Source: a virus. Taken from it: a DNA stretch of 22,611 nt. The stretch spans positions 1-22,611 of IMG/VR virus record IMGVR_UViG_3300025168_000727. One strand, written 5' to 3'. Each line of letters starts with the position of its first letter. Positions within the stretch are counted from its first letter, which is position 1. Under the pieces are notes generated by a model. The model was not told where the DNA came from. It searched no databases and worked only from the letters and a program-made list of their open reading frames with translations. Below are positions 11,787 through 21,657 of the stretch, in pieces. Position numbers and translations under genes: made by a program.

Positions 11787-12504
11787 AAAGCTTCTTGAAT
11801 CCGTCTTCTATAGTCTTAACGTAAGCAGGGTCACGCTGGCTTACATTGTGGTATCGAGGGTCAAGCATCATAGTTCTTAAATCAGACTCATTAATTTTAT
11901 CTACTGAATCTGTAGTAGAATTTAATGACGCGCCTTTCATGTTTTCCATAATATGCTCTAAGGCAACAATACCTTCATGGGTCTCTGCCATGCGTTCTAT
12001 TGCTGGCATTAACTCCTCAGGGAAAAACTTATTAGCAAATGCACTAGCTGCATTAGTTCTATCTAAAGCTTGGTCGCCTAGTTTAATCATCTCATCGTCA
12101 ATGTTAACTTCATTACCAGCAATAGCGTTCATATATTTTTCAATACCAGCAGAAAATACATCCTGACCATAACCATTCTCAAATGAATGTTCAGACCACC
12201 ACTGTAACAGCTCACTTTCAATAGCCTCACCTTCGTCTATGTTCTCAGGTAATGTATAATCACCTTTGTTTTCTGGACGATTCTCATACTTAGTTCTATT
12301 AAACTCTTCTTCTATTTCTTTACGAAGAGTTTCATCTTTATTACCTAGCTTAGACTCTAGCTCTTTATAAGCTTTGGCTAGGTCTTCACCTGTTTTGTAT
12401 TTTTCAGGCAACCATTCTGGTCTGTCAGTAGTTTCTACTGGCTCTACTGCCTCAGTTGTTTCTGCAACTTCTTCTGTTTGTGTATCTAATAATGTTTCAT
12501 TCAT
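11779..12504 (-). CDS. Capsid assembly scaffolding protein (241 aa)
   Basis: An acidic, helical protein with a Glu/Thr-rich N-terminus, then the hallmark RPEWLPEKYKTGEDLAKAYKEL (residues 28-49) shared by podovirus scaffold proteins. A C-terminal helical region ends in a short basic KTIEDGFKKLYG. Scaffolds guide capsid assembly and leave before DNA packaging. It lies two genes after the portal and shortly before the capsid. The start overlaps the stop of the 85-aa gene by 4 bases (ATGA), and the stop overlaps the gp13-like gene by 8. Confidence 0.88.
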   Translation of the reverse strand: MNETLLDTQTEEVAETTEAVEPVETTDRPEWLPEKYKTGEDLAKAYKELESKLGNKDETLRKEIEEEFNRTKYENRPENKGDYTLPENIDEGEAIESELLQWWSEHSFENGYGQDVFSAGIEKYMNAIAGNEVNIDDEMIKLGDQALDRTNAASAFANKFFPEELMPAIERMAETHEGIVALEHIMENMKGASLNSTTDSVDKINESDLRTMMLDPRYHNVSQRDPAYVKTIEDGFKKLYG

Positions 12505-16452: not shown

Positions 16453-16830
16453 TTACGACAGGTCTATAGAGACACGAATGTCACCAGCTACCTGCACTTG
16501 ACTCCTATCTATTGGCTTGAACCCTGCTCTGTCTAGCAAGTCCTTGCTTGCTTCCAGCTGAACATACTCACTCTTAGCACCCTTACTCAGTCCTGCTAAC
16601 TGGTATACAGCTGCAGGAGCAAGTCTACTAAACTGTTCTGTCACCACTGTCATCAAGTGCTGTTGCACGTGTGCTGTCTTCAATGCCTTTTGTGCTGTGA
16701 CTCTACCGCTGTCACCTTCTGCGTATCCTGCGGTCTTTGCAGCTTGCGTGACATTCCCTCCATTTGCTACATATGCATCAACTAAAGCTATCTGTCTTTT
16801 GGTTAGTTTTCTTACTGCTACTTGGTTCAT
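16453..16830 (-). CDS. terS: Terminase small subunit (125 aa)
   Basis: The N-terminus has the Terminase_2 pattern LTKRQIALVDAYVANGGNVTQAAKTAGYAE (residues 9-38), a helix-turn-helix that recognises the packaging start site, then a helical oligomerisation region AQKALKTAHVQQHL and a C-terminal tail. Length (125 aa) is short to normal for the family. It is the first gene of the leftward late block. Its ribosome site is weak (AAGAG), but a purine-rich stretch with several stronger SD-like blocks lies 13-35 bases upstream inside a mirror repeat. Confidence 0.85.
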   Translation of the reverse strand: MNQVAVRKLTKRQIALVDAYVANGGNVTQAAKTAGYAEGDSGRVTAQKALKTAHVQQHLMTVVTEQFSRLAPAAVYQLAGLSKGAKSEYVQLEASKDLLDRAGFKPIDRSQVQVAGDIRVSIDLS

Positions 16831-16842
16831 CTCTTGTTACAA

Positions 16843-16865
16843 CCCCCTCTCCTTACCTCTCCCCC
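16843..16865. repeat. Perfect polypyrimidine/polypurine mirror repeat
   Basis: CCCCCTCTCC, spacer TTA, then the mirror image CCTCTCCCCC. With only one purine in the pyrimidine strand, this is the sequence type able to form intramolecular triplex (H-DNA). In the leftward transcript it becomes a purine run with SD-like blocks just before the terS start codon. Confidence 0.8.
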
Positions 16866-16869
16866 TTCA

Positions 16870-16899
16870 CAGATAGCTTGTTACAAATGTACGTGTCAA
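16870..16899 (-). promoter_or_regulatory. Possible leftward promoter for late genes
   Basis: On the minus strand a perfect -35 hexamer TTGACA (16894-16899) is followed after 18 bases by TATCTG, a poor -10. The dyad TTGTTACAA falls inside the spacer and recurs 44 bases downstream, which would suit an operator. The weak -10 keeps confidence low. Confidence 0.35.
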
Positions 16900-17040
16900 C
16901 TCACAAATCAAACTACTGTCATAAGTATGCTAAAGAAGCACCTTATTACTGCTATCTCACCCAGAATCAGCCTCGTAGTTCCGCCTTTAGTTCGCTGGCT
17001 CTGTCATTTCTCACCATGAATTGTCCAAATAGAGTCACCT

Positions 17041-17104
17041 CAAAGCCATCTTAACCAACCACAACAATCTCGAGAGGTCAGTACCTATATCGAGGATGGC
17101 TTTG
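17041..17104 (+). ncRNA. Three-tier hairpin element
   Basis: The outer stem of 10 perfect base pairs is CAAAGCCATC (17041-17050) with GATGGCTTTG (17095-17104). The 3' arm continues directly into a second stem, CTCGA (17069-17073) with TCGAG (17090-17094), leaving an 18-base bulge on the 5' side. Inside is AGGT-CAGT-ACCT (17075-17086). The two outer stems could stack coaxially. No U-run follows, so it is not a terminator. It may be an RNA element in a rightward leader, or a DNA protein-binding site. Confidence 0.5.
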
Positions 17105-17315
17105 TCACGACCTGTCTACTCTTGCAACTGACACTAGCCTACTCATTCCGTCTTTTCTTATTCACGAAGCCGATTGTTACCTTCATGCTACAGGCTTACG
17201 AAAGCTCGCTTTTTGTCTAGGTAATGTCTTGCCGAAATGTTCATAACTTGTCGAAGAGTAAGTCACTATTGCTTGAGAAGTTTATGTTGAATGAAATCTT
17301 TCTTATGTGAATCTG
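17105..17315. other. Non-coding stretch between structured elements
   Basis: No gene was recognised and no convincing sigma-70 promoter found on the plus strand. A TTGAGA at 17273-17278 lacks a fitting -10. A weak 5-bp stem followed shortly by a T5 run lies at 17193-17214 but is too weak to call a terminator. The early rightward promoter may lie here but cannot be placed. Confidence 0.4.
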
Positions 17316-17610
17316 TTCCTGTCATATCGCGAGGGAAATTCCTCGTGTCTTGTCTGCCATATCCTATCTGGTCAGAAAAGAGAAACGGACGTATCCATAC
17401 ACGACCTTGTGCGGATGCTATTCCACCTTTGGTGGGCATCCTTTATTGAATAGACCCTCGTCAGTTTATCTTGTCCGATGGTTGTGGCTAGGTCGTGGTT
17501 TATTTAATGCCTATTTATTTAACCACGCTAGATATTATCTGTTGGCTGGGCCAGATAGGATATGGCTGTCAAGTCTAAGTACGAGGAATTTCCCTCGCGT
17601 ATAACAGGAG
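17316..17610 (+). ncRNA. Large nested inverted repeat; candidate structured leader RNA
   Basis: The outer helix is TTCCTGT (17316-17322) with ACAGGAG (17604-17610), the latter being the Shine-Dalgarno of the next gene. After one mismatch come 3 more pairs, a bulged T, then a perfect 19-bp inverted repeat at 17328-17346 and 17581-17599. After a small internal loop follow 4 pairs and a perfect 16-bp repeat, GCCATATCCTATCTGG (17356-17371) with its complement at 17551-17566. The enclosed 179 bases hold further stems: 17413-17418/17436-17441 plus 17423-17427/17431-17435, and 17488-17491 plus 17494-17500 with 17521-17531. The repeat lengths are far beyond chance. It could be a translational switch, an RNase III target, or a DNA-level site. 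No known RNA class was recognised. Confidence 0.65.
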
Positions 17611-17616
17611 ATTAAC

Positions 17617-18012
17617 ATGAAAGATTTAATTAAACATAAACTAGCAATAGCAACTTACTCTTCAACAAGTTCTGAACAGCAAGACGACTACCTAAACAAA
17701 AAGCGAGCTTCCGACGCTATCTATTCAGGTAACAATCGTCTTCAGTTCTTTAAGAAAAGACTACATGAGCAGGCTACTAAGATGTCAGCTGCAATCGCAG
17801 ACAACGATGACAAAGCCATCCTCAATCTAGCTACTTGGATTGACCTCTCCGAAAAGATTGTTGCGGTTGCCCAAGATGACTTCGATGCCGACCAGTCTGT
17901 ATTCGAACAACTACATGGCGAGAAATGGCAGGCCAACGCGCCATCTAAAGCCCGAACTACTCATCTAACTCAGGATGAGATAGAAGAAATCAAAGAAAGG
18001 TATGCTTCATAG
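17617..18012 (+). CDS. First early protein, unknown (131 aa)
   Basis: A 131-residue, helical, charged protein of no family I recognise. Residues 20-70 are rich in Lys, Gln and Asp (a KKRASDAIYSGNNRLQFFKKRLHEQ segment), the middle has LATWIDLSEKIVAVAQDDFDADQSVFEQL, and the end is HLTQDEIEEIKERYAS. It is the first gene of the rightward block, with an ACAGGAG ribosome site 6 bases before the ATG. That site is predicted to be base-paired at the foot of the large upstream hairpin, so its translation may be tightly controlled. First early phage genes often encode host-takeover or regulatory proteins. Nothing in the sequence proves that here. Confidence 0.75.
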   Translation: MKDLIKHKLAIATYSSTSSEQQDDYLNKKRASDAIYSGNNRLQFFKKRLHEQATKMSAAIADNDDKAILNLATWIDLSEKIVAVAQDDFDADQSVFEQLHGEKWQANAPSKARTTHLTQDEIEEIKERYAS

Positions 18013-18023
18013 CATACTTACTT

Positions 18024-18051
18024 TATCGAGGTAGGCTTTCGGGTCTACCTC
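18024..18051 (+). other. UUCG-loop hairpin before the 27-aa gene
   Basis: GAGGTAG (18028-18034) pairs perfectly with CTACCTC (18045-18051), and wobble/GC pairs extend the stem inward to a TTCG loop (18038-18041), a very stable combination. No U-run follows, so a processing site or leader hairpin is more likely than a terminator. The sequence from 18024 repeats a piece of the 17041-17104 element. Confidence 0.55.
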
Positions 18052-18070: not shown

Positions 18071-18154
18071 ATGGCACAAGATTTAATCGGAATTGTAGCT
18101 CTATGCGTTATCGTTGCAGGCGTGTTACTGATAGGTGAGGGTTTCGGCTTATAG
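18071..18154 (+). CDS. 27-aa single-pass membrane peptide
   Basis: A tiny frame of 27 codons with a proper AAAAGGA ribosome site 7 bases before the ATG. The peptide is MAQDLIGIVALCVIVAGVLL followed by IGEGFGL. Residues 5-21 form one hydrophobic helix, so it should insert into the inner membrane. No known family was recognised. Roles such as superinfection exclusion or membrane anchoring are open. It lies alone between the 131-aa gene and the DUF932-like gene, where nothing else codes, which supports reality. A chance frame cannot be fully excluded. Confidence 0.5.
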   Translation: MAQDLIGIVALCVIVAGVLLIGEGFGL

Positions 18155-20943: not shown

Positions 20944-20985
20944 AACAAATACTTATAGGACGTTATGAGACACCTATGTACGCTA
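20944..20985 (-). promoter_or_regulatory. Possible leftward promoter for an OOP-like antisense RNA
   Basis: On the minus strand TATAAG (complement of 20952-20957) is a 5/6 match to the -10 consensus. A weak -35 TACATA lies 17 bases before it. Transcription starting near 20945 would reach the terminator at 20878 and give an RNA of about 65-70 bases, similar to lambda OOP (77 bases). The -35 is poor, so this is a suggestion. Confidence 0.35.
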
Positions 20986-21257
20986 CAACACTAACATTAA
21001 ACATTTGCAAAGCGCAAGTTAATAATGCCAATGCAAAATATGTATACATTATTCTTGCTTCATATGTAGATGAAGGTGGTGTATGCTATCCTTCCATCCA
21101 AGGATTAGCAAAGAGAACAGGGCTATCAGGACGTACTGTTATTAGAGCTATTAACTACCTAGAAGAAAATAAATTCTTAACAAGAGAGCGTGGATGTAAG
21201 GGTAACACCACTCTCTATGACTTAACTTGCCCACTGGAGAACACCAATGACAGATGA
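20976..21257 (+). CDS. Replication initiator N-terminal domain protein, HTH_36-like (93 aa)
   Basis: This is a winged helix-turn-helix: ANAKYVYIILASYVDEGGVCYPSIQGLAKRTGLSGRTVIRAINYLEENKFLTRERG (residues 19-74). The pattern is the one at the N-terminus of phage O-like replication initiators (DNA-binding domain), with a C-terminal domain that loads helicase normally in the same protein. Here the gene ends after 93 residues, and the next gene supplies the C-terminal part, overlapping by 11 bases in another frame. The ATG at 20976 has no close ribosome site; a good AGGA site instead serves a 9-codon mini-ORF at 20965-20994. The split could be natural or could involve frameshifting. Confidence 0.8.
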   Translation: MYATTLTLNICKAQVNNANAKYVYIILASYVDEGGVCYPSIQGLAKRTGLSGRTVIRAINYLEENKFLTRERGCKGNTTLYDLTCPLENTNDR

Positions 21258-21657
21258 GAGTAGTGACACACAGTCACACAAAGAGAATAAGATTATTACT
21301 TATACTAACAATAAAGAACTAAACTCTTTGGGTGACACACTGTCACCTAGTGAGTTCGACTTCACTAGGTTCTGGGAAGTATACCCCAAGCATGTGCAGA
21401 AAAAGACAGCACGTTATGCTTTCTTCAAAGCATGCAAGACAGCAGACAAGTACGATATAATTTCTGGTGCGCTTGCTTTCGCTGATGCTATGAAATCCAA
21501 CAACACCCTCAAGAAATACATACCTCATGCATCTACATGGCTAAATGGTGAGCGTTGGGAAGATGACTTCGATGACCTCAAGGAAGAAACCAATACACAA
21601 GTGCTAGATAATATTCTTAGCTTCCCTCTAAACCAGCTCACAGCACAGGACAAATGA
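21247..21657 (+). CDS. Replication initiator C-terminal-type protein (136 aa)
   Basis: After a Ser/Asn/Lys-rich linker of about 35 residues comes FDFTRFWEVYPKHVQKKTARYAFFKACK, then YIPHASTWLNGERWEDD. This is the C-terminal block common to phage O-like / primosomal initiator proteins ('FW..YP.K..K..A...F.K.' and 'P.a.tWLn..rW.d'). It is thought to contact the helicase or its loader. Its frame overlaps the HTH gene by 11 bases. The DNA of the linker holds the palindromic, AT-rich origin-like cluster at 21263-21370, as lambda ori lies inside gene O. Confidence 0.8.
   Translation: MTDESSDTQSHKENKIITYTNNKELNSLGDTLSPSEFDFTRFWEVYPKHVQKKTARYAFFKACKTADKYDIISGALAFADAMKSNNTLKKYIPHASTWLNGERWEDDFDDLKEETNTQVLDNILSFPLNQLTAQDK
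21263..21370. other. Origin-like cluster of dyads with AT-rich spacer
   Basis: Two copies of GTGAC-N5-GTCAC lie at 21263-21277 and 21332-21346 (the second extends to GGTGAC/GTCACC), separated by an AT-rich stretch (21281-21327). A perfect 9-bp inverted repeat ACCTAGTGA/TCACTAGGT follows at 21345-21370. The cluster lies inside the initiator gene pair, as iterons do in lambda ori. It is a plausible replication origin and initiator-binding region; function is inferred. Confidence 0.55.

Follow-up and report, generated by a model that had tools for sequence, protein, structure and literature searches.

A long imperfect hairpin linking the first early gene of a group of marine phages to a co-evolving mirror copy

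Marine phages of an uncharacterised group carry a long imperfect hairpin in which one arm takes in the start region of the first early gene (g131) and the other is a non-coding inverted copy of it, lying beside the terminase small subunit gene (terS). Judging from the pattern of mismatches between its arms, the hairpin is very probably selected on the minus strand; most likely it acts as an RNA. As a tentative reading of its role, the element may encode a leftward structured RNA that is antisense to the start region of g131 and folds back on an imperfect version of that target carried in the same molecule.

Extent and recurrence of the inverted repeat

The window analysed here is the whole 22,611-nt stretch of the IMG/VR record IMGVR_UViG_3300025168_000727 (positions 1–22,611; 22.6 kb), in which plus denotes rightward and minus leftward, towards terS. 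The record is podovirus-like, with a leftward cluster (terS, terL, portal, capsid, and tail tubes) and a rightward early cluster, and the closest portal protein from a cultured phage is that of Pelagibacter phage EXVC031P (64%). Comparison of the record with itself identified one long inverted repeat (Table 1; 72.7% identity, 494 columns, E 1.3e-64) and no other in the window. The right arm covers the leader of g131 and essentially its whole coding sequence. Two readings were rejected: the left arm is not a second, divergent protein-coding paralogue, as it has no conserved open reading frame (ORF), and the repeat is not an assembly artefact or chimera, as identity between the arms is only 73% and the repeat also occurs in other contigs.

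Table 1. Coordinates of the element and its flanking features in the window
Feature	Position	Strand	Basis
terS, terminase small subunit; first gene left of the element	16453–16830	-	PHROG 2538, E 5.6e-13
Promoter-like TTGACA-17-CTATCT, between hairpin foot and terS	16871–16899	-	Read from the sequence; TTGACA part conserved across clades
Left arm: non-coding mirror copy adjoining terS; 3' half of the proposed leftward RNA	16922–17371	-	Self-comparison with 17551–18020; no conserved ORF
Apical loop region with its own smaller helices	17372–17550	-	Lies between the arms; folding; part conserved in L006–L008
Right arm: antisense of the g131 leader and coding region; would form the 5' half of the proposed leftward RNA	17551–18020	-	Self-comparison; folding
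Shine-Dalgarno (SD) of g131, AGGAG, within the duplex	17606–17610	+	Sequence; in relatives too, SD and start codon lie in the duplex
g131, first early gene, 131 aa, all-helical	17617–18012	+	ORF; divergent family alignment; AlphaFold2 pLDDT 90

A sequence-only reading of the window had proposed a rightward hairpin of about 295 nt (17316–17610), built on a perfect 19-bp and a perfect 16-bp inverted repeat, as a candidate undescribed structured leader that would hide the start of g131, its foot pairing with the SD. Both helices are present, the first at 17328–17346/17581–17599 and the second as the core of a longer helix (17349–17371/17551–17573, 91% complementary overall), and the SD does lie in the outer helix. 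Folding of 17300–17640 was far more stable than chance (−140.5 kcal/mol compared to −84.4 ± 4.6 for shuffled sequences; z −12.2; none of 100 shuffles as stable). A search of Rfam 15 at the curated gathering score matched neither the window nor any of 12 related loci. The proposed extent was too small: seven further inverted pairs in the same register flank the two helices, and the original hairpin is the tip of a longer element. The analysis supports a real, selected, and undescribed structured element that covaries among relatives and holds the SD and start codon of g131 in one helix; the extent and the strand originally proposed are not supported.

Relatives were gathered using terS, the 289-aa gene downstream of g131, and several versions of g131 itself. 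An inverted repeat of at least 40 columns occurred at the 5' end of g131 in 20 of 33 non-redundant loci with the gene, a lower bound given the threshold, and in 1 of 26 control windows; three loci below the threshold (L162, L163, and L169) still pair well in the clade alignment described below (A5). The cultured pelagiphage EXVC031P (OQ414635, region 12116–12456) carries a 163-column version at the same place, and the corresponding junctions of HTVC010P and MEP301 hold no comparable repeat. Arm length varies about tenfold among loci, from ~45 to ~550 bp. The extreme case, L032 (82–1214 from the terS start), is a near-continuous quasi-palindrome of 1.13 kb with 73% identity (E about 1e-174) and almost no loop.

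In two loci, L010 and L099, terS is 98–99% identical to that of the window, but a divergent version of g131 and of both arms has taken the place of the window's. For L010 (terS 98%, g131 only 43%), the mirror arm changed along with the gene, which indicates that the module moves as a unit; recombination appears to swap g131 and both arms together between conserved flanks.

The product of g131 has no convincing match in Pfam or PHROG. Its predicted structure had no close counterpart in the PDB (best match UvsY, only E 0.09), and the best match in BFVD was an uncharacterised protein (E 1.2e-3). No relatives were found in bacterial genomes or, by tblastn, in annotated phages, and EXVC031P has a small gene at the same place.

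Between the hairpin foot and terS, most clades inspected have a G-rich polypurine tract as well as a TTGACA site resembling a promoter. The site in the window was not reported by an automatic promoter scan. From this arrangement terS may have its own promoter, such that a leftward transcript of the element need not be late mRNA. The G-rich tract (16843–16867, minus strand; type GGGGGGAGAGAGGGAGAGGGGG) immediately precedes the terS start, is conserved in every clade inspected, and is possibly a packaging, replication, or G-quadruplex signal. On the other side of the element, a short plus-strand hairpin (18028–18051; GAGGTAGGC-TTTCGG-GTCTACCTC) comes after the stop codon of g131; clades A and C conserve it with a G.U pair on the plus strand, opposite to the large element. 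A possible gene for a 27-aa hydrophobic peptide (18071–18154, plus strand; MAQDLIGIVALCVIVAGVLLIGEGFGL) occurs between g131 and the 289-aa gene, with a start region conserved among relatives. Farther right, two overlapping ORFs (20976–21257 and 21247–21657) match consecutive parts of the replication-initiator family phrog_270 (41–117 and 162–260) and are probably a frameshifted or split gene.

Pairing, strand and shape of the hairpin

Changes in the gene arm were accompanied by matching changes in the mirror arm. Between the window and L008, 16 of the 23 gene-arm duplex positions that differ were kept as Watson-Crick pairs in both genomes by a change in the mirror. Of the 135 positions with an unchanged gene arm, only 16 had an altered mirror. 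Compared to L099, 44 of 60 gene-arm differences were compensated (mirror altered at 22 of 106 unchanged positions), and in a further comparison 73 of 122 differences were kept as Watson-Crick pairs in this way. Pairs for these counts were picked by blastn, which favours complementarity, and does so alike in the changed and unchanged gene-arm classes. For alignment A5, comprising one clade aligned on sequence only, RNAalifold predicted 63 pairs, 25 of them with two-sided changes, a count reached by none of 500 shuffles and reduced to at most six when partners were slid by 1–3 columns. Two-sided changes occurred in all seven clades. Compensatory changes in the helices thus go beyond controls, and together these comparisons show that the mirror arm co-evolves with g131 and that the pairing has been preserved by evolution.

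A strand that is selected to fold tolerates its own G.U wobbles, and these show up as A.C mismatches when the opposite strand is read. Among the plus-strand mismatches of all loci taken together, 272 were of the A-C/C-A type and 47 of the G-T/T-G type (26 and 1 for the window alone). The excess held along the right arm (leader, 41:21; nt 0–49, 67:13; nt 50–149, 64:2; beyond, 100:11), amounting to 231 minus-type and 26 plus-type wobbles in the coding part, such that wobbles of the rightward strand were favoured in neither the leader nor the coding region. For an overlapping set of loci (284:68), a composition null predicted ~204 mismatches of the A-C type out of 352, compared to the 284 observed (p 1.6e-19). 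The remaining mismatches, in minus-strand terms, were G.A (152), U.C (72), G.G (53), and C.C (6); they agree with minus-strand pairing, in which G.A is tolerated along with G.U, and indicate that mismatched minus-strand C is avoided. Mismatches were not more common at third codon positions, where uncompensated synonymous changes in g131 would have enriched them. A few short-arm clades lack the strand bias (minus-type to plus-type, 2:5 in L051 and 9:5 in L043).

Predicted stability differed between the strands as well. As RNA, the whole element folds at −581.6 kcal/mol on the minus strand (z −29) and at −484.5 kcal/mol on the plus strand (z −22), a gap of 97 kcal/mol compared to 30 ± 8 (maximum, 44.6) in 60 shuffles. 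Mismatch asymmetry and minus-strand stability both identify the leftward strand as the one selected, and the case for the structure and for its assignment to the minus strand is strong.

The hairpin has a recurrent shape. Gap lengths between the arms were bimodal on the gene side (1–2 and 4–6 nt), and the bulges that break the helices keep a constant position with respect to the start codon of g131. The window, L006, and L010 share a 5-nt bulge on the left at +25 from the start, along with one of 5 nt on the right near −37 to −41. Other clades share a 3–4-nt right bulge near −15 and a 4–5-nt right bulge near +10, along with a short mirror insertion just before the start codon. An apical stem (TTCGCAA...TTGCGAA) is common to several clades, and in almost all loci the core of the duplex spans the SD and start codon of g131.

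Possible roles of the element

The best explanation, though a tentative one in its entirety, is that the element encodes a self-sequestered antisense RNA acting in cis on g131. A leftward transcript would start to the right of the right arm, cross g131 in antisense, and run towards terS. Its 5' half would be exactly antisense to the region where translation of g131 starts, while its 3' half, a target copy rich in wobbles and bulges, would fold back on the 5' half, the imperfect hairpin keeping the antisense strand in a stable holding form. From there the antisense strand would invade g131 mRNA and cover its SD and start codon, where cis-antisense RNAs usually act, and so silence g131 at the onset of leftward (late) transcription. 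In its position, the minus strand of 17551–18020 is an exact antisense of the leader and start of g131, an arrangement common to the relatives. By simple duplex energies, the antisense strand forms a much stronger duplex with g131 mRNA (−923) than with the built-in mirror (−536) and could thus invade the mRNA. Some observations sit poorly with this explanation. A simple antisense RNA needs no fold-back copy; arm length varies about tenfold and a few short-arm clades lack strand bias; terS seems to have a promoter of its own, such that the leftward transcript need not be late mRNA; and consensus scans to the right of the right arm gave no common minus-strand promoter, for a host group and phages whose promoters are poorly known.

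The same evidence for strand and structure would suit a leftward structured RNA with no antisense task, either a leader of leftward transcripts or a free-standing non-coding RNA (a scaffold, or an RNA for packaging, anti-termination, or decoy), in which case the overlap with g131 would be incidental. Such an RNA would account for the position next to terS and for conserved bulges and apical stems that exceed what antisense pairing needs. It would not account for a core that, across loci, is exactly the g131 start region, nor for a module that moves together with g131, and we consider it possible but rather unlikely.

Single-stranded DNA tolerates G.T and G.A as well, and the mismatch asymmetry therefore does not separate RNA from DNA. 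A minus-strand single-stranded DNA structure serving replication, or concatemer processing and packaging at the terS junction, is a serious rival on this ground, with the site beside terS and the conserved G-rich tract in its favour. Pairing that extends deep into a coding gene and a tenfold variation in length would be odd for a DNA end signal, and this role is unlikely. The genome of EXVC031P is recorded as circular.

The rightward leader of the sequence-only reading, acting as a translational switch or RNase III target, draws support from the placement of the g131 SD and start codon within the duplex and from a rightward RNA that also folds far better than shuffles; within the 295 nt originally delimited both strands fold about equally, the rightward slightly better, and that part may have a secondary rightward role. 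Rightward pairing should give a mismatch spectrum opposite to the one observed, and the pairing in the window covers most of the coding region, beyond the needs of a start switch. Given the wobbles kept on the leftward strand and the greater stability of the leftward RNA, a rightward SD-hiding leader is not mainly what selection maintains, and the reading is improbable.

Still less probable is an element with no function, an inverted duplication whose arms are kept alike by template-switch (quasipalindrome) correction and otherwise decay. According to PMC3820800 and PMC7202029, such events extend arm identity in imperfect inverted repeats, and many of the two-sided changes seen here lack wobble intermediates, as template switching would produce. 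This mechanism predicts no strand asymmetry, recurrent bulge positions, or avoidance of mismatched minus-strand C, all three of which were observed, and long inverted repeats are normally unstable, yet the element recurs across diverged phages. Template switching may well help to keep the arms alike, leaving the strand bias and bulges unexplained. A DNA cruciform, for which a symmetric mismatch spectrum is expected, was rejected on the strong strand asymmetry, and neutral decay with compositional bias was rejected on the composition null given above.

Relation to known systems

Long inverted repeats tend to be lost, being usually unstable, yet in this diverse group of marine phages one reaching 1.1 kb has been retained at a single position, and its pairing co-evolves with a protein-coding gene. 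If it acts as RNA, the element would be among the longest covariation-supported hairpin elements in phages, and the coding sequence on one strand would be tied to the folding of the other. The cultured pair EXVC031P and Pelagibacter HTCC1062 carries a short version, making the element directly testable. More tentatively still than the antisense role itself, it may represent a new class of phage regulatory RNA, a self-sequestered hairpin at the early/late junction in which the antisense of a protein-coding gene's 5' half is paired with a co-evolving imperfect copy of its target and is exchanged between phages as a unit with the gene. The ingredients (antisense RNA, foldback by inverted duplication, and structured phage RNA) are known; neither Rfam nor the open literature searched contained their combination at this length with the gene as an arm, and nothing in that literature described the element.

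The concatemer-processing hairpin of T7 is likewise a hairpin near the junction of early and packaging functions, and is a DNA structure at the genome end. Large structured RNAs such as GOLLD and ROOL are known from phages. Like these and OLE (PMC12286853), the element is large and supported by covariation; GOLLD, ROOL, and OLE are multi-helix folds with conserved sequence, whereas the element forms one long rod, has little sequence conservation, and lacks a match in Rfam. The CBASS-activating cabRNA (PMC10686824) is also a structured phage RNA of the terminase region, but it lies inside terS-terL, is about 400 nt or under 50 nt, is an incidental trigger of host immunity, and has no inverted gene copy. 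Closer in its proposed role are the cis-encoded antisense RNAs (type I antitoxins and lambda OOP RNA; reviewed in PMC5415839), which are antisense to a neighbour's SD or start, structured, and found in a phage setting; unlike the RNA proposed here, they are short and are not known to have a long co-evolving fold-back copy of the target. Closest in form are plant MIRNA foldbacks that arose by inverted duplication of target genes, where an inverted partial gene copy likewise gives rise to a long imperfect hairpin RNA (PMC3237417 and PMC1790633). Those are eukaryotic, depend on Dicer-like processing, and have the duplicate at another locus, whereas in the phage element the gene itself is one arm.
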